Shown here one piece after another: positions 50,891 through 59,844 of a DNA stretch of 64,000 nucleotides. A program made the position numbers and the translations under genes. Location of the stretch: the NCBI GenBank assembly GCA_013298165.1, contig JAAFJU010000001.1, positions 1-64,000 on the forward strand. The letters are read 5' to 3'. This DNA comes from Synechococcales cyanobacterium bin31.maxbin.ball.101. Its GTDB lineage: Bacteria; Cyanobacteriota; Cyanobacteriia; Leptolyngbyales; Leptolyngbyaceae. A model generated the notes under the pieces. It was not told the origin of the DNA and made no database searches. It saw only the letters and a list, made by a program, of their open reading frames with translations. How positions within the stretch are numbered: position 1 is the first letter of the stretch; every line of letters starts with the position of its first letter.

Positions 50891-52087
50891 ATGATGACAG
50901 ATCAAACGGTAATGACAAAACTCAGCTATGACCTGTTGACGCTGTCGCAACAGCGAGCAACAGGCGAGCTAACGGTAACTTATGGAACCCAGCCTTTACA
51001 AAGTCGGCTCTATTTCTATTTAGGTCGATTGGTCTATGCGACGGGCGGCGTCCATCCTGTCCGTCGCTGGACCCGAGGCATCCAACAGCATTGCCCAAAG
51101 TGTATCACCAGTCCCTGGATCAAGACGGCCCGATCGAGCCATGAACTCTGGGAAATGGATCTGATCAATCAAGCGATCGAACAAAATTTAATGGGTGTGA
51201 ATGAAGCCAAGGCGGCGATTCGCCAAATTACTCAAGAAGTTTTGTTTGAAATCCTTAGCTATGCGAATGCGAAGACGGAATGGAAGCCCGGTGTCAAAAT
51301 TGAGCATCAGACGACGTTCCTAGCGATCGAGCAATTGATTAATGAGGCACAGCAGCTTCGATTACAGTGGTATGCCATTGGTAAAAGCTCCCAAGCCTTT
51401 TTTGGCCAGGTGTCGCCGGACTTAGCCCCGGTGGTGATTCATCCCTACGAATTGGAATCTCAAGTCTCACCCGAAGCCTTCACCAGTATGGTCAGCCTAA
51501 TGAAAGGACAGTACACGCTGTGGGATGTCGCCTGCCAGATGAAATGTCCGTTGCCCAATTTGATCCGAGTGCTGTGGAAACTGATTCAGCAGGGGGTGAT
51601 TGAATTACGAGCAATTCCAGACTGGCAAGCGCCGATCGTTCCTAAGGCCGCACCGAAGGCGATCGCCAAGCCAAAACGTAAAGCCTTGATTGCTTGTATT
51701 GATGACAGTCCAGCGATCGGACAAAAAATGGCAAAAATTCTGGAACCGGAAGGGTATGAGGTGTTGACTATTACTAACCCCCTTCAAGGCATTTCGATGC
51801 TCTTAGATCGAAAACCCGACCTAATTTTTTTAGACCTCGTCATGCCAAATACCAATGGGTACGAACTCTGTACCTTTTTGCGCAAGACCTCGGCATTTCA
51901 AAATACGCCCATTGTGATTTTAACCGGACATGACGGCGTGATCGATCGGGTTCGTGCCAAGCTAGCCGGGTCTTCTGACTTCCTCGCTAAGCCCCCCGAA
52001 GCCGACAAGGTATTACAAACGATCGATCGCTTCCTAGCCCCTCAACCCGCTAGTGAAATGACCTCCTTCGTGACCTCCATGGCCTAA
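50891..52087 (+). CDS. PatA/PilG-type response regulator (DUF4388-REC)
   Basis: A 398-aa two-domain regulator. Residues ~8-140 form a DUF4388/PatA N-terminal domain (GELTVTYGTQPLQSRLYFYLG, GRLVYATGG), a middle helical region follows, and residues ~265-385 form a receiver domain with acidic pocket IDDSP, phospho-acceptor Asp in LIFLDLVMPNTNG, Thr in VILTGHDG and Lys in SDFLAKPPEADK. It is the first gene of a pil/tax operon (pilG position), where such proteins act as phosphate-accepting output for type IV pili. Which paralogue (PilG, PixG, TaxP) it is cannot be decided here. Confidence 0.9.
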   Translation: MMTDQTVMTKLSYDLLTLSQQRATGELTVTYGTQPLQSRLYFYLGRLVYATGGVHPVRRWTRGIQQHCPKCITSPWIKTARSSHELWEMDLINQAIEQNLMGVNEAKAAIRQITQEVLFEILSYANAKTEWKPGVKIEHQTTFLAIEQLINEAQQLRLQWYAIGKSSQAFFGQVSPDLAPVVIHPYELESQVSPEAFTSMVSLMKGQYTLWDVACQMKCPLPNLIRVLWKLIQQGVIELRAIPDWQAPIVPKAAPKAIAKPKRKALIACIDDSPAIGQKMAKILEPEGYEVLTITNPLQGISMLLDRKPDLIFLDLVMPNTNGYELCTFLRKTSAFQNTPIVILTGHDGVIDRVRAKLAGSSDFLAKPPEADKVLQTIDRFLAPQPASEMTSFVTSMA

Positions 52088-52134: not shown

Positions 52135-52500
52135 ATGACTACGATTTTGATTGTTGAAGATATGATGAGCCAAGCTGAAATCATTGGTAAAACCCTTCGT
52201 CAAGGCGGTTATAACACCGTCATTGTGACCACCAGTGAAGAAGCAAAGGTCCATCTCCAAAGCCAAACACCCGATGCGATCGTGATGGATGTGGTTCTGC
52301 CCGGTCTCAGCGGTTTTGAACTCTGTCGGGAATTGAAAGAAGAACCCAGCACGATGCAAATTCCGATCGTGATATGTTCCACGAAAGATAGCGAAATGGA
52401 TAAGTATTGGGGAATCAAACAAGGGGCTTCGAGCTATTTGACCAAGCCGATCGATGCCGCTGCATTATTACGAGCTGTAGAGGCGTTAGTCAAACCTTAA
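52135..52500 (+). CDS. PilH-type single-domain response regulator
   Basis: A 121-aa stand-alone receiver domain with the acidic pair VEDM, phospho-acceptor Asp in IVMDVVLPGLSG, Ser/Thr in ICSTKDS and Lys in SYLTKPIDAAAL. CheY-like output protein expected to be phosphorylated by the PilL kinase. It lies 47 bp after the PilG-type gene and before cheW, the standard order. Confidence 0.93.
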   Translation: MTTILIVEDMMSQAEIIGKTLRQGGYNTVIVTTSEEAKVHLQSQTPDAIVMDVVLPGLSGFELCRELKEEPSTMQIPIVICSTKDSEMDKYWGIKQGASSYLTKPIDAAALLRAVEALVKP

Positions 52501-52579: not shown

Positions 52580-53077
52580 ATGTCGATCGCATCGCCCACT
52601 CAATCGCCGACTCAATCTAAGACTGAACAATTTCTCAGCTTCTCCCTCCCATCCAATCTCGCGATTTTACCCACGCAAAACCTGACGGAAGTGTTGACCT
52701 TAAGCGCTCAGCAAATCGTGCCCATTCCCGATCTCGACCCCTCGATCGTTGGGGTCTGTAACTGGCGGGGCGAAGTGCTGTGGCTCGTGGATCTCCAAGC
52801 CGTCCTCAACGGTGAACCACTACCACCGCTGCAAGGCAGCCACTACAGCGCTATCATCCTGCACCACAATGGTCAAACCCTCGGGTTAGTCGTGTCGCAG
52901 ATGACTCAAATGGTCTGGTGCGATCCGATCGAGATTCAAAGTTTGCCCAGCACTCAGCAGAATTCACAAACCCGATCGCAAACATCACCCTGTATTCAAG
53001 GCTATTGGATTTCACCGCAGTCTGACACCTTTCTCGTTCTCAATACCGCTGAGATTTTTGCGAACTTTCAGCATTAG
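52580..53077 (+). CDS. CheW-type coupling protein (PilI position)
   Basis: A 165-aa CheW-like protein that should couple the PilJ receptor to the PilL kinase. The N-terminus is Ser/Gln/Thr-rich; then LSFSLPSNLAILPTQNLTEV, IPDLDPSIVGVCNWRGEVLWLVDLQ (the conserved G(V/L)xNxRG core) and VSQMTQMVWCDPIEI. Third gene of the pil/tax operon, 79 bp after pilH with a repeat in the gap. Confidence 0.92.
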   Translation: MSIASPTQSPTQSKTEQFLSFSLPSNLAILPTQNLTEVLTLSAQQIVPIPDLDPSIVGVCNWRGEVLWLVDLQAVLNGEPLPPLQGSHYSAIILHHNGQTLGLVVSQMTQMVWCDPIEIQSLPSTQQNSQTRSQTSPCIQGYWISPQSDTFLVLNTAEIFANFQH

Positions 53078-53137: not shown

Positions 53138-55483
53138 ATGGTCGCTAACATTCATCCGTCTGATTCTGCATTTGATTCCAATAGCCAACGTATTGACGTT
53201 CAAACGACTACCAATAGTACAACACCGGAACAAGCAGAGAAGTCGTCCAACGGCAACACTCCCCAATCGCCCAAACCACGGATAGGCGATCGCTTTAAAC
53301 TCCCCAAACACCTCAGTCTCCGGGCAAAAGCAACCCTAGCGGCGATCGCGATCGGCACCCTGTCAGCAACCATGGTCGGCGGTACAGCCTACTGGGTCGC
53401 CAACCAAACGGTGGGTAAAAATGTTCTTGAAACCTCCACCAATACCAGCAGCAGCATGGCGGATAAAATTAACCGCTTTATGTTTGAACGGTATGGCGAC
53501 ATTCAGGTGCTATCTAGTCTTCCAATTTTGACAAACCCTAAAGTTCGGACTGAAATTCCCATTGCAGAACAGTCGAAAATTCTGACCAAATTTGCTAAAA
53601 CCTATCAGGTGTATGACAGCATTGCAGCATTTGATCTGACGGGAAATGTCATCGTTCAATCGGAAGGCACACCGCTGGGCAATCATCGCGATCGGGAGTA
53701 TTTCAAGACCGTTCTTCGTACTGAGAAACCGATGGTGAGTGAGCCAGAACTCTCGAAATCCAGCGGGAAAATGGTGATTCACTTTGCCGCTCCGCTTCGC
53801 GATTCAGAAACCAATAAAATGATCGGCGTGGTCCGTAGCCGGATGTCCCTAGAAGCCGTCAGTGAGGTGGCAGCACTCTCCGGTTCGGGGAGCGATGCCT
53901 TCTACGTCACCGATAACGCAGGCAACATCTTCATCGCCAAAGACCAAAAATATATCAACCAAAAACTGTGGGATGTTTTGCCCGGTTCAGGACTCTGGAA
54001 AGACACCACTGGAATCGATAGCAGCAACCTCTCCCTCGACACGCTGAATCAAAATAAAGAACTCCTCGTCGGTCATGCCCAACTCAAGACCTTCCCCGGA
54101 CTTCCCGAACTCCAATGGCGCGCCGTCCGATCGGCTCCCAGCAGCAACGCATTCGCCGCCCAACAGCAGATGCTCTTCACGTTGATTTTGGGGACGGCAG
54201 GGGTCTCATTATTGGTCGCTGTGATTGCAGCGGTGCTGGCGAGTCGGGCGGTGCGACCGATCGAAACCGCCGCGCAAGCCGTGGAACAAATCGGAGCGGG
54301 AGATTTGAGCATTCGGATTCCGGTCATCGGCAATGACGAAGTGTCCCGCCTCTCGTCCAATATCAACCAAATGACCGAGCAAATTAATACGCTCATTACC
54401 GAACAAAAAGCCGAATCCGATCGCATTGAAATCGCCCGCCAGGAAGCCCGTGCTGATGCGTCTGCTGCGATCGATGAACAGAAGCACCAAAAGGAATTCC
54501 TCCAAAAACGCGCACTGGAATTGCTCATGGAAGTGGACCCGGTTAGCAAAGGTGATCTCACGATTCGCGCAACGGTGACGGCGGATGAAGTGGGGACGAT
54601 CGCGGATTCCTACAATGCCTTGATTCGATCGCTCCGTCGCATTGTTGAACAGGTGAAAACTGCGTCGCAATCGGTAACAGCAACGGCATCCAGCAGTGAA
54701 ATCTCAGCGAATGAACTGTCCCAGGAAGCCCGTCACCAGATGCAATCCATTCTTCTGGCGTTTGAACAAATCGAAGTCATGGCAGAATCCATCCAAGGCG
54801 TCGCCGATCGTGCCCAAAAAGCAGAAGATCAAGTGGTTCAAGCCACCGCGACGATCAAAGCGGGGGATGATGCGATGAACCGGACGGTCATCGGGATTTC
54901 GGCGATTCGGGAAACGGTGTCGGAAACATCGAAAAAAGTGAAACGTCTGGGTGAAGCGTCCCAGAAGATTTCCAAAGTCGTCAGTTTGATTGGGGGCTTT
55001 GCGTCTCAGACGAACCTGTTGGCATTGAACGCGGCGATCGAAGCGGCACGAGCTGGGGAAGAAGGACGCGGGTTTGCGGTGGTTGCGGAAGAAGTGCGAT
55101 CGCTCGCTCAACAGTCTGCGGCGGCAACGGCGGAAATTGAGCAACTCGTCGAAGAGATTCAGACCCAGACCAATGAAGTGGTCACGGCGATGGAAGACGG
55201 GACGCAGCAGGTCGTCACCGGAACCCAATTGGTTCAAGAAACCCGTCAACGTCTCAATCAAATTACGCAAGTGAGTACGCAAATCACGCAGTTAGTCCAG
55301 GAAATTTCCGAAGCGACGGCAGCGCAGACGGAAGCTTCTAATGCGGTCAGTGCCACGATGAAAGAAGTGGCAGGGATCGCCGACGAAACCTCCAAGCGAT
55401 CGGACACGGTGTCGAGTTCATTCTCCGACCTGGTGAACGTTGCTAAAGGTCTAGAAGTCAGCATCACTCAGTTCAAACTGTAA
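53138..55483 (+). CDS. methyl-accepting chemotaxis protein (PilJ type)
   Basis: A 781-aa transmembrane receptor. After a ~60-residue Ser/Thr/Pro-rich cytoplasmic start there is TM1 ([18 protein letters not shown]), a periplasmic dCache-like sensor (~100-340) with [12 protein letters not shown] and [11 protein letters not shown]2 ([23 protein letters not shown]), a HAMP domain ([25 protein letters not shown]-type, ~375-425), a second HAMP-like segment (~480-530) and the signalling hairpin with [20 protein letters not shown]-type tip. No phytochrome-like GAF domain is present, so direct light sensing through a bilin is unlikely. Fourth gene of the operon. Confidence 0.94.
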
Positions 55484-55508: not shown

Positions 55509-55631
55509 CCTCGGAATGAATTCCGAGGCTCATAGCGAAAACCTGTTGAAACAGGTTGAAGAGAAACAATCAATCTCTTTCAGTCCGTTTCAACGGACTT
55601 CCGCTATGAGCCTTGGGTTTCTAACCCAAGG
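55509..55631. repeat. branched palindromic repeat element, copy C
   Basis: Left hairpin CCTCGGAAT-GA-ATTCCGAGG (55509-55528); outer stem CTCATAGCG (55529-55537) with CGCTATGAG (55602-55610); inside: AACCTGTT-GA-AACAGGTT (55540-55557), a GAAGAGA/TCTCTTTC stem (55558-55581) and AGTCCGTTTCAACGGACT (55582-55599); right hairpin CCTTGGGTT-TCT-AACCCAAGG (55611-55631). It fills most of the pilJ-pilL gap. Confidence 0.88.
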
Positions 55632-55696
55632 TGGTCACGAACGAAGCGAGACCATCCTCCGCCCGATCGCTTCTCACTCCATCTCCCCAATCTCCT

Positions 55697-58600
55697 ATGT
55701 CAGCCACTACCCTCGAATACGACGAACAAATCTATCAATTCTTCATCGAAGAATCCCTCGAATTTCTCCAAATCCTCGAACAAGGATTACTCGATCTGCG
55801 TCACGATCGCAGCGTCTCAAAAATCCACGAACTCATGCGCGCCGCCCACTCCATCAAAGGAGGAGCCGCGAGTATGGGACTCGATGCCATCAAAGCGATC
55901 GCCCACCAGATTGAAGATGTCTTCCGAGCGCTGTATCGGTTAGAAACACCGATCGAGTCAGATTTTGAATCGCTGTTATTGCAAGCTTACGATTGCTTAA
56001 GTCAACCATTATTGGAACAGATTCAAACCGGATCTCACGATGGAGACGCGGCACTTCGAGCGGCGAAACCGATTTTGGATCAGTTGGCGGATTGGCTCGG
56101 GAGTGTGTTGCAGGATGTGGATCATGAGCTGCCGACCAGTGCTGAGCTGGGGTTTGACCTGGTGGCGATCATTTTTGGCACGGATGTGGCGCAAGGGATT
56201 GAGCGATTGGAAGGCGTGTTGGCGAATCCGATCGATCGGGAAGTGTTCTGTGAGATTCATGCGCAGGCGGAAGTGTTTATTGGGGTTGGGCAATTGGTGA
56301 ATGTGCCTGGATTTGTGCGCATTGCTCAAGCGACGATCGCGGCACTCGATACTCAGCCGGAAAGAGCATTGGAGATTGGGGCGATCGCGCTGGAAGAATT
56401 TAAGCTTTCGCAAGCGGGGGTTTTGGATAAGACGGCTTTAGATGGGGGTGAGCCGAGTGAAGGGCTGTTGGCGTTTGCAGTACCAGGTTTTGTGGTGGAA
56501 GCTCTGGCGAGCAGCCCCCCAGCCCCCAATTTTGGGGGAGCCGGAATTGGGGAGATGAGTTTTGATTCTGGGGGGACTGAGTATTGGATGGGGCTGAATC
56601 AAGGTAGTGAGAATGATGGGTTTGGAAGTGAGCCGATCGCACCGACGAGTGAGTTTGATCTTGAAAATATTTTCGGGATGGTTCGTCAAGAGGTTGCGGA
56701 TTCTAATCTCGATACGATGTTTGCGACCGCTCAGCCAGAAACACCTGTCCCGAATCTCAGTGATATTTTCAGTTTCAATCCCCAGCCGATCGGGGAAATG
56801 GATCTCGATAGCTTATTCAGTCCCAATCCGGCGATCGTTGAAGCCATTGAAGCCATTGAAGCACCCGATCTCAATGCCATCTTTAGGGGTGAACCGTTAG
56901 AGATTCCGAGTTCGGATCTCGATGATATTTTTAGCGTCAAAGCTCCGCCGATCGCGCCCATTTTTGAGCTTCAAACCGATGCTCAAATCGACGTTCAGCC
57001 TGTTGTTTCTAAAGTTCAGCCCAACGTTCAAACTGAAGCTGAAACTGTTGTTTCTGAAGTTCAAACCATTGCTTCTAAAGTTCAACCCGCTGTTTCTGAA
57101 GTTCAACCTGTCGTTCCCAACGTTGCTCAAACGGTTGCGCTTGAGGTCAAACCAGTTGTTAAACGAAAAGCAGCAACGGCGACCACTGGACCTATAGCAT
57201 CCAACACCATCAAAGTCGATCTTCCACGACTAGAACGGTTAAACAACCAAATTGGCGAACTGATTACGCAAGAAAATGGCGCGATTCTTCAGGTCAAACA
57301 ACTGCAAGGACTCGTCAGCCGTTTAACCGATCGCATGTCCCGCTTTGAGTCCACCACCAAAGGACTCCAAGACTTCACCGACAAGAGCCAGAACGATCGG
57401 GTTCGGCTGCAAATGCTGCAATTCCCAATGGGAGCAGAAACAGGAAAAATCATTGATTACAGTACAGAATCGATCGCCTTTGGAATGGATCAACCCGAAC
57501 TCGATCCACTACAGATGGATAGCTACAGCGAATTGCATTTGCTCGTCCAAAGTGTCATCGAAGAAATGGCACAGTTTGGCGAAGGACTCCGGGATATGAA
57601 TCTCGTCATGCAACAAGCCCAACACACCCAACATCAAAAACAACAAACCCTCAAGCAAGTCCGAAACGATCTGCTCTGGGTCCGGATGTTTCCCTTGGGC
57701 GACACCCTGCAACGCTTTCCCCGCATGGTTCGCGACCTCTCCACGGAATACCACAAAAAAGTCGCCGTCACGCTTAGCGGCACCAACACCCTTGTCGATA
57801 AAGCCATCCTGGACAAACTCAACGATCCCCTCCTGCACCTGGTCCGCAACGCCTTCGACCACGGTGTGGAACCGCCCGCCGATCGCACCGCCCAAGGCAA
57901 ACCCGCCGAAGCCACGATCGAACTCCGCGCCTACCATCGTGGCAACCAAACCTACATCGAAGTCCGCGACGATGGACGCGGCATTGACCTCGAAAAAGTC
58001 AAAGCGAAAGCGATTTCTAAAAAACTAATCACAGAAGAAGAGGCGAAAACCCTCACGAGCGAACAGATTCAGGAATTCCTCTTCGCCCCCGGCTTCTCCA
58101 CCGCCGCCCAAGTCAGCGAACTCTCCGGTCGGGGCGTCGGACTCGACACCGTACGATCGCAGATCCGTTTGCTCAAAGGTGGCATTACCATTCAATCAGA
58201 ATTGGGCAAAGGTACTACGTTCACGATGCGATTGCCATTGACGTTAACGGTTGCAAAACTGTTGGTGTGCAGCATTGGATCAAACCTGTTGGCATTGCCG
58301 ATGGATAGTTTGGTTTCGATCGTCTCCGTCACCCCCAACGACATCACCACCCTCAACGGCAACGCCTACTACAAAATCCAAGATCAACTCATCCCGCTCT
58401 ATCCCAAAGCCCAGTTCCTCAACCACTACAAAATCTCCCGCAGCATCAGCGATCACCTGCAATCATTGGCAATGCCCGAAAGCGGCAAATTCCCGCTCCT
58501 CCTGATCGCAGGCGAATCCGACATCATCGCCTTACCCGTGGACCAAATCCTGCAAGAACAAGAACTAGTCATCAAGCCATTCTCCTCGACCATCCAACCG

Positions 58601-59137
58601 CCACCTTACCTGTACGGCTGTACAATCCTGGGCGATGGCAGTTTGGTTCCCGTTCTCGACACAACGGCATTGATTACGCCCGATCGATCGACTGCAATTA
58701 CAAATGCCAACGCAGGAAACCATTCCGTGTTGGACGATCGTTCAACCGATCGCATTCCCAGCATTCTCGTCGTCGATGACTCCCTCACCGCCCGCAGCAC
58801 CCTCTGCGCGACATTGAAAAAAGCAGGCTATCACACCCTCCAAGCCCGCGACGGACGCGAAGCCCTCACCCAGCTCACCCAACACCCCGAAATCCAAGCC
58901 GTCTTCTGCGACATCGAAATGCCCAACATGAACGGCTTCGAGTTCCTGACCCACTGCCGTCCCGATCGCCCGAAAGACAAGCTCCCAATTTTCATGGTCA
59001 CATCCCGCAGCGCCGAAAAGCACCGCCAAATCGCCCAAGCCCTAGGAGCCACCGCATACCTCACCAAACCCTTCCTAGAACAAGACCTCCTCAAAACCCT
59101 CAAAACCGCTCTAGCTCCTGCTTTAGTTCCCGCGTAG
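55697..59137 (+). CDS. hybrid CheA-type histidine kinase (PilL type)
   Basis: A 1146-aa kinase. Domains: HPt with phospho-His51 (RAAHSIKGGA, ~8-110); a second HPt-like helical region (~130-260, lacking a clear phospho-His motif); a disordered linker (~270-510) with repeated DLxxIF motifs and a Val/Gln-rich repeat; the dimerisation domain; the HATPase domain (LLHLVRNAFDHGVEPPADR, DDGRGIDLEKVKAK, GRGVGLDTVR); a CheW-like domain; and a C-terminal receiver (ILVVDDSLTARSTL, CDIEMPNMNGFEF, TSRSAEK, YLTKPFLEQ). The ATG at 55697 starts MSATTLEYDEQIYQFF. A family-2 repeat is translated in frame at 56507-56541. Confidence 0.95.
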   Translation: MSATTLEYDEQIYQFFIEESLEFLQILEQGLLDLRHDRSVSKIHELMRAAHSIKGGAASMGLDAIKAIAHQIEDVFRALYRLETPIESDFESLLLQAYDCLSQPLLEQIQTGSHDGDAALRAAKPILDQLADWLGSVLQDVDHELPTSAELGFDLVAIIFGTDVAQGIERLEGVLANPIDREVFCEIHAQAEVFIGVGQLVNVPGFVRIAQATIAALDTQPERALEIGAIALEEFKLSQAGVLDKTALDGGEPSEGLLAFAVPGFVVEALASSPPAPNFGGAGIGEMSFDSGGTEYWMGLNQGSENDGFGSEPIAPTSEFDLENIFGMVRQEVADSNLDTMFATAQPETPVPNLSDIFSFNPQPIGEMDLDSLFSPNPAIVEAIEAIEAPDLNAIFRGEPLEIPSSDLDDIFSVKAPPIAPIFELQTDAQIDVQPVVSKVQPNVQTEAETVVSEVQTIASKVQPAVSEVQPVVPNVAQTVALEVKPVVKRKAATATTGPIASNTIKVDLPRLERLNNQIGELITQENGAILQVKQLQGLVSRLTDRMSRFESTTKGLQDFTDKSQNDRVRLQMLQFPMGAETGKIIDYSTESIAFGMDQPELDPLQMDSYSELHLLVQSVIEEMAQFGEGLRDMNLVMQQAQHTQHQKQQTLKQVRNDLLWVRMFPLGDTLQRFPRMVRDLSTEYHKKVAVTLSGTNTLVDKAILDKLNDPLLHLVRNAFDHGVEPPADRTAQGKPAEATIELRAYHRGNQTYIEVRDDGRGIDLEKVKAKAISKKLITEEEAKTLTSEQIQEFLFAPGFSTAAQVSELSGRGVGLDTVRSQIRLLKGGITIQSELGKGTTFTMRLPLTLTVAKLLVCSIGSNLLALPMDSLVSIVSVTPNDITTLNGNAYYKIQDQLIPLYPKAQFLNHYKISRSISDHLQSLAMPESGKFPLLLIAGESDIIALPVDQILQEQELVIKPFSSTIQPPPYLYGCTILGDGSLVPVLDTTALITPDRSTAITNANAGNHSVLDDRSTDRIPSILVVDDSLTARSTLCATLKKAGYHTLQARDGREALTQLTQHPEIQAVFCDIEMPNMNGFEFLTHCRPDRPKDKLPIFMVTSRSAEKHRQIAQALGATAYLTKPFLEQDLLKTLKTALAPALVPA
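56507..56541 (+). repeat. GC-rich hairpin repeat, family 2, copy 3, inside pilL
   Basis: GCGAGCAGCCCCCCAGCCCC then CAATTTTGGGGGAGC, matching intergenic copies at 20848, 52504 and 59856. It is read in frame as ASSPPAPNFGGAG within the disordered linker of PilL. Confidence 0.75.
56650..56936 (+). repeat. DLxxIF short-motif array in PilL
   Basis: Six short motifs in about 95 residues: DLENIFG, NLDTMFA, NLSDIFS, DLDSLFS, DLNAIFR, DLDDIFS. They are spaced 13-27 residues apart by Pro/Glu-rich sequence in the linker between the HPt region and the kinase core. Confidence 0.8.
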
Positions 59138-59355: not shown

Positions 59356-59844
59356 ATGCTACTCCACCCAAAATTCCAAACCCTCCGCCCCACCACCCCA
59401 CCCGTCCCCCAAATCAAAGCCCTACTGATCGAAATCCAAGATCTCCGCCTCGCCATTCCCCTCGACATCCTCGTCAAAGTGATCCGCACGCCCAGCACCA
59501 TTTTCAAAAGCGGCGACAAATGGATGGGCATGACCCAACTCGACCAAGACAGCCTCCTCGTCCTCGATCTCTACCGCAAAATCTACGGCATCGATAACCC
59601 CAAACCTGTTGAAAATCTGGTTATCGTTCACGATCGTCAACCCGCCCTCACCCAACTCCTCGGCATCCCCGTCAGCCATCTCCCCACCATGATCAGCTTC
59701 CCCGCCGACAGCCTCAAACCCATTTCCGCAGACTATCGCAATACCGACACCCTTGGCATTGCCAGCCACATGGCAGTCATTAATCCCACAACCAATCCAG
59801 AAACAATCTTCATCCTAGATACAGACCGACTCTTCGTAAACTAA
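59356..59844 (+). CDS. second CheW-like protein
   Basis: A 162-aa CheW-domain protein: IKALLIEIQDLRLAIPLDILVKVIRTP, then LDQDSLLVLDLYRKIYG and LGIPVSHLPTMISFPADSLKPI. The usual GxxxxRG core near the dimer surface is altered, so it may be a diverged coupler or a CheV-like piece without receiver. Last gene of the pil/tax cluster; the 218-bp gap to pilL holds a MITE-like repeat and a heptamer array, so cotranscription is uncertain. No Shine-Dalgarno is evident, only pyrimidine-rich sequence. Confidence 0.85.
   Translation: MLLHPKFQTLRPTTPPVPQIKALLIEIQDLRLAIPLDILVKVIRTPSTIFKSGDKWMGMTQLDQDSLLVLDLYRKIYGIDNPKPVENLVIVHDRQPALTQLLGIPVSHLPTMISFPADSLKPISADYRNTDTLGIASHMAVINPTTNPETIFILDTDRLFVN

Follow-up and report, generated by a model that had tools for sequence, protein, structure and literature searches.

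The window, by which we mean the whole 64,000-nucleotide stretch of cyanobacterial DNA that was analysed, carries an operon with the content of the Tfp class of chemosensory systems, namely a PATAN-receiver protein, a receiver, CheW and an MCP beside the CheA kinase, in an order common to many of the relatives. We assigned the PilG/H/I/J/L and PixG/H/I/J/L labels by position and by common usage, and the kinase presumably controls type IV pili, judging from the operon type. The genes of the operon and the domains of the kinase are as follows.

50891..52087, plus strand: PATAN (DUF4388)-receiver protein in the PilG/PixG position, candidate partner (ORF, Pfam)
52135..52500, plus strand: single-domain receiver in the PilH/PixH position, candidate partner (ORF, Pfam)
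52580..53077, plus strand: CheW-like protein, PilI (ORF, Pfam)
53138..55483, plus strand: dCache-HAMP chemoreceptor, PilJ-like (ORF, Pfam)
55631..59137, plus strand: PilL/PixL-like CheA of 1168 aa, with Hpt, helical domain, disordered linker, P3, HATPase, CheW and receiver (ORF, Pfam, AlphaFold2)
55730..55939, plus strand: Hpt, residues 34-103 (PF01627)
56492..57208, plus strand: disordered linker, residues 288-526 (AlphaFold2, pLDDT < 50 nearly throughout)
57200..57373, plus strand: P3 dimerisation domain (H-kinase_dim), residues 524-581 (PF02895)
57830..58243, plus strand: HATPase (P4), residues 734-871 (PF02518)
58259..58675, plus strand: CheW-like domain (P5), residues 877-1015 (PF01584)
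58763..59101, plus strand: C-terminal receiver, residues 1045-1157 (PF00072)
59356..59844, plus strand: second CheW-like protein, downstream of CheA (ORF, Pfam)

By its Pfam matches, the kinase has the domain order of the Tfp class (Hpt, H-kinase_dim, HATPase, CheW and a C-terminal receiver). None of these matches is to a P2 (CheY-binding) domain between Hpt and P3, and this region is disordered. Residues 166-283 (window 56126-56480) form a conserved helical region after the Hpt that is predicted with high confidence and has no Pfam match; its run of helices is possibly a second bundle of the Hpt type that has degenerated.

The disordered linker holds six in-frame matches to [DN]Lxx[ILMV]F, beginning at PilL residues 343, 359, 375, 391, 413 and 429 and thus separated by 16, 16, 16, 22 and 16 residues; together they span window positions 56657-56932, and all six also fit the stricter [DN]Lxx[ILM]F.

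56657..56674, plus strand: motif 1, DLENIF (pattern match)
56705..56722, plus strand: motif 2, NLDTMF (pattern match)
56753..56770, plus strand: motif 3, NLSDIF (pattern match; residues 379-380 escape the pLDDT < 50 segments)
56801..56818, plus strand: motif 4, DLDSLF (pattern match)
56867..56884, plus strand: motif 5, DLNAIF (pattern match; short low-confidence helix at 415-418, AlphaFold2)
56915..56932, plus strand: motif 6, DLDDIF (pattern match; short low-confidence helix at 430-433, AlphaFold2)

A preliminary description of this DNA had reported six such motifs in a disordered linker between the Hpt and the kinase core, and this is confirmed: the motifs share the reading frame of the 1168-aa ORF, they lie between the Hpt and the H-kinase_dim domain, and the linker that contains them is of very low confidence almost from end to end. 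Chance is a poor explanation for their number, as shuffling the window linker gave a mean of 0.04 strict matches and none of 20,000 shuffles reached six. The 16-residue spacing, on which that description is silent, suggests that a 48-bp unit was duplicated in tandem long ago; the spacers of the six 48-bp units are 37% identical at the nucleotide level, compared with a null of 28% from in-frame segments of this linker that are unrelated to one another, and L and F are kept in six copies out of six with codons that differ synonymously (CTT/CTC and TTC/TTT).

Relatives were collected with one scan of contigs, from which 80 of 97 loci were kept, and further loci came from a scan of 386 genomes of the phylum, 34 of which matched at E <= 1e-150. 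A CheA core was present in 112 ORFs, 86 of them with an Hpt before P3, and 77 representatives at < 90% core identity were retained, including the window protein and two paralogues from its own genome (L002 and L004). The 26 ORFs left out showed no Hpt match ahead of P3 or of the start of the core; some of them, such as L102 and L104, clearly carry the motif. In the 77 linkers, the strict form is found in 24 copies in 12 linkers (3.1 after shuffling), while a relaxed pattern, L[DENSTGAQ][DENSTA][ILMV]F, has 169 copies in 57 linkers against a shuffled mean of 8.3, and a tight one, L[DE][DE][ILMV]F, has 111 copies in 43 linkers against 1.1. The relaxed pattern was framed after the linkers had been viewed, and a reversed control and a count of gapped residue triplets without any preset motif serve as guards: reversed, the strict, relaxed and tight patterns give 1, 0 and 0 copies over the 77 linkers, and among the triplets, L...FG ranks first, found in 48 of the linkers with 2.5 expected, followed by S....FG, VFG, D.FG and P.L...F. 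The expectation that the motif would recur in homologous linkers despite their poor alignment is thus borne out.

The form of the motif differs somewhat from the one first described. Typical examples in the relatives are PSLEDVFG, IPLDDLFQ, SALEDIFG and PDLDDMFG, and among 167 instances within the disordered part, P is found at -2 in 98, S at -1 in 82 (D in 11 and N in 9), E or D at +1 in 144, D or E at +2 in 129, V or I at +3 in 135 and G at +5 in 82. On sequence evidence, the general cyanobacterial motif is P-S-L-[ED]-[DE]-[VI]-F-[GS], with the broader form [PS]-x-L-[DE]-[DE]-[VILM]-F-[GSA], and the window array is a local form of it. The Lxx[ILM]F core of the preliminary description therefore holds, but its D or N at the first position does not generalize: the residue before L is mostly S in the relatives, and [DN] is the window's version of that position.

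Twenty of the 77 linkers have no relaxed motif. Some contain variants, such as PDEVFG (L019), SVDELFG (L025), FEDIFS (L035), LHDLFG (L039) and SDFFG (L097), and four (L002, L073, L098 and L099) are shorter than 80 residues and have neither motif nor variant, L073 being the one Synechocystis CheA in the set; at 34 linkers, those with only one or two copies are numerous. Separate from the array, a second conserved element, [IV]xxxFxxLP, lies just before P3, with F..LP present in 37 of the 77 linkers, and is predicted as a short helix, for example at residues 360-372 of the L022 protein.

Copy number varies from 0 to 12 per linker, and the repeats differ in period among lineages, being 14 residues in L091 and L022, 15 in L095, 16 in L012 and the window, 17 in L094, about 30 in L010 and L011 and about 45 in L024, with spacers unrelated between lineages. 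Such lineage-specific periods indicate that the copies have been multiplied repeatedly. On a quick tree of the core from P3 onward, the possession of at least three copies changes 11 times, at least eight of the changes being forced by starred branches, a count that does not tell gain from loss and in which three long branches are unsure. Copies that arise by tandem duplication and then keep their L and F as the spacers drift look like the outcome of purifying selection acting on a motif of the docking type, and the recurrence looks like repeated selection for several copies. With its core residues conserved, its spacers diverged and its numbers in excess of shuffled and reversed controls, the array looks as an array of short linear motifs should, and the sequence comparisons support well the view of a real, selected and multivalent linear motif. 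The earlier suggestion of such a motif in a fast-evolving disordered linker fares well as to the motif itself, whose surroundings can hardly be aligned, and its multivalency is favoured by the lineage-specific multiplication; of the binding partners that it suggested, a motor, a localisation factor or the response regulators, the analysis allows a ranking only. In one genome (G368), the CheA is split into two overlapping ORFs by a frameshift inside a NADDLFGG array (L114:1272-1301).

The motif is largely a property of CheA. When frames no shorter than 120 aa are counted in loci L001-L117, [SDNTP]L[DE][DE][VIML]F has 99 instances in 121,325 aa of CheA frames and one in 291,545 aa of other frames, many of which are not genes; the single exception is a CheA paralogue missed by the filter. 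At the DNA level, an exact PxLxxVFG-type pattern was found at 35 places in 117 genomes, eight of them in CheA, 19 isolated in unrelated proteins and eight outside any open frame longer than 60 aa. We take the unrelated proteins to be KaiC-like, RpoB, a methyltransferase, an ATPase and others. A two-copy DNA pattern, the reversed control of which also matches in some genomes, was found at 34 places in 386 genomes, with 17 places in the CheA of four genomes (G123, G131, G060 and G296), one in a KGK-domain protein (G211) and 16 scattered. In the window's own genome, a similar DNA pattern gave three chance-like places and, being too tight, missed PilL itself.

Two further kinds of protein carry related arrays. 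The same genome encodes a second CheA (G000:C344, L192, reverse strand), the paralogue that was the single exception in the frame count, 1515 aa long as cut by the contig end, whose linker of 870 residues has 28% D+E, 2% K+R, LLGDD repeats and seven matches to [LFIVM].[DE][LIVM]F, with 0.71 expected from shuffling and none of 3,000 shuffles reaching seven. Three KGK-domain (PF08872) proteins, L160 (G211), L199 (G083) and L208 (G058), have long acidic tails with five to seven copies of [LF]xx[LIVM]F, a number reached in none of 5,000 shuffles for each, though the pattern was chosen after the tails had been seen and the proteins come from one genus. The CheA linkers L112 and L117, from two genomes of that genus, have no motif, and the sequences are suggestive of the peptide having moved in trans onto a KGK-domain protein there. 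At its very start, positions 1-770, the window encodes a KGK-domain protein too, the acidic tail of which has zero copies of the motif.

In Fischerella/Pelatocladus, kinase-less CheA remnants of about 433 aa lie directly downstream of an MCP and comprise the post-Hpt helical region, CheW and a receiver.

L085:5626-6924: CheA remnant (domain content)
L087:5908-7203: CheA remnant (domain content)
L088:5914-7212: CheA remnant (domain content)

In these three records from one lineage, the Hpt, array, P3 and P4 are all absent, and the protein looks like a CheV-like adaptor that arose by reduction. The joint loss of the Hpt, P3, P4 and array is in line, weakly, with a link between the array and phosphotransfer. 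Some operons with a motif-less CheA linker also encode a PATAN-receiver, a receiver and CheW, from which it follows that the motif is not indispensable and that co-occurrence of genes does not indicate its partner.

Structures were predicted with AlphaFold2 for the window CheA and for the L022 CheA with its near-perfect repeats, from alignments of 65 and 57 rows and not of all 77 representatives. Within residues 288-471 of the window CheA, only 379-380 (motif 3) and 433 (motif 6) fall outside the pLDDT < 50 segments. S, D and N are good helix N-cap residues, and one of them before L, an acidic residue at +2 and the final G would go well with a helix of a single turn; the models lend this faint support in the window, with low-confidence helices at two of the six motifs (5 and 6), and none in L022, where no motif is helical. 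Docking of the array on the protein's own Hpt, P4, CheW or fused receiver was seen in neither model, and a partner in cis on the kinase domains was set aside as a candidate, the array being disordered and undocked in both.

We tentatively favour the reading of the array as a multivalent strip that docks the receivers of response regulators on the tether between the Hpt and the kinase core. Repeated along the flexible Hpt-kinase tether, the docking peptide, x-L-[DE]-[DE]-[VIL]-F-[GS], would catch the receiver domains of the PATAN-receiver PilG/PixG-type regulator, the single-domain PilH/PixH-type regulator or both, and so raise the local concentration of regulator beside the phospho-Hpt; one to 12 short peptides would then do what the folded P2 does in E. 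coli CheA. We infer the binding of a ligand, the tuning of avidity by copy number and the receiver as the ligand. According to PMC10782961, P2 is the domain on which CheY docks, and it is missing from most CheAs that bear a receiver, the Tfp-class ChpA among them. A receiver-bearing CheA that has no P2 and carries one to 12 peptides on the tether beside its Hpt is what would be expected if the regulators were held near their phosphodonor. A likeness of pattern to FliM also speaks for this reading: the EIDSLLG peptide of FliM binds CheY/Cle and ceases to do so after an ID-to-WA change (PMC5677366). FliM binds CheY at its alpha4-beta5-alpha5 face (PMC11528121). A profile of our motif run over 23 E. 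coli flagellar and chemotaxis proteins places the CheY-binding EIDALLN of FliM 387th among 6,664 windows and 19th within FliM, and none of the C-terminal windows of CheZ scored well; by profile, similarity to FliM and CheZ is not significant. As the profile fails to single out the FliM peptide, the resemblance is at the level of pattern only. Also counting against receiver docking are the undocked fused receiver in both models and the 20 linkers that do without the relaxed motif.

The partner could instead be on the pilus side, an unlikely reading but a serious one, in which the motif would bring in a factor from the pilus or the cell pole (the PilB/PilC complex, the PATAN domain and not the receiver, or a coiled-coil protein of the HmpF type) and so anchor the chemosensory array at the base of the pilus. 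According to a review (PMC12288463), PilB1 is a target of PATAN regulators, and genes for HmpF-like proteins lie next to chemotaxis-like systems; the motif's presence in two CheA classes of one genome, and that of similar copies in a KGK-domain protein of one genus, would also fit a common partner outside the kinase. On the other hand, the peptides sit in the moving tether beside the Hpt, not near the CheW domain, and the Fischerella remnants keep the CheW-receiver part yet do without them.

We consider it quite unlikely that the peptides need no specific folded partner and act as hydrophobic-aromatic stickers in an acidic spacer, clustering the CheA linkers by self-association into packed arrays or condensates. 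While the linker is multivalent, acidic and disordered, and that of the C344 paralogue long and highly acidic, the order of residues matters, as the empty reversed controls for the relaxed and tight forms demonstrate; moreover, the preferences from -2 to +5 (P, S, L, E/D, D, V/I, F and G) exceed what stickers need, and the linkers with just one or two copies, common as they are, count against clustering.

More improbable still is autoregulation in cis, in which the peptides would bind P4, the Hpt or else the fused receiver, serving as brake or pseudosubstrate. Being on the same chain, they would have a high local concentration, and LNAIFR, which runs from the L of motif 5 to the residue after it, recurs in an N-terminal segment of E. 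coli CheA (QLNAIFR at residue 39), which we take to lie just before the phospho-His; but the two all-domain models give neither docking nor raised confidence, and with thousands of windows compared, the identity at LNAIFR is probably due to chance, as is its reading as a mimic of the Hpt. That the array has no function, being a low-complexity repeat prone to slippage in a linker that tolerates it, is very improbable: recent tandem repeats are indeed frequent (L091, L094, L095 and L022) and one array contains the L114 frameshift, but the same motif turns up among spacers and periods that have nothing in common, persists in linkers with a single copy, keeps L and F through synonymous changes in the window after the spacers have decayed, and stands out against the shuffled and reversed controls over the linkers. 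What weight remains beyond these five readings belongs to something else.

Returning to receiver docking, a bolder and rather doubtful extension is that the pilus chemosensory kinases swapped the folded P2 for a peptide antenna of tunable valency, multiplied independently in different lineages, and that its code, common to the second CheA and, in one genus, to a KGK scaffold in trans, would be a common docking code that sets the amount of regulator at the chemosensory array. The motif would bear on how receiver-bearing CheAs of the Tfp class without a P2 hold, and choose between, the antagonistic PixG and PixH; its two-residue core (L and F) makes the choice of regulator testable by point mutation and peptide binding, and the linkers with one to 12 copies form a natural series of valencies. 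The conserved element lies within sequence that alignments discard as unconserved. Text searches of open-licence papers for the motif strings and for PilL or CheA linker terms found no description of it; docking elements of CheA and short linear motifs are known kinds, and to the extent of that literature, this form is new.

Among known systems, the nearest in position is the P2 domain of E. coli-type CheA, which, according to PMC10782961, lies at the same place in the chain, between the Hpt and P3 with flexible linkers. Docking the regulator is the job of P2, and by analogy, the same is proposed for the array; unlike the folded P2, the array consists of repeated short peptides in variable number, has no Pfam P2 match and owes its binding role to our proposal. 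The CheY-binding peptide at the N terminus of FliM shares by eye a Phi-[DE]-x-Phi-Phi-G pattern, common to EIDSLLG (PMC5677366) and the DLDSLFS of the window, but unlike the FliM and CheZ peptides, the motif has F for L, is part of the kinase and comes in arrays, and we claim no homology. In overall architecture, the likeness is to the PixL/PilL/ChpA kinases of the Tfp class, with the same order Hpt...P3-P4-P5-REC and an operon that contains two response regulators, CheW and an MCP.
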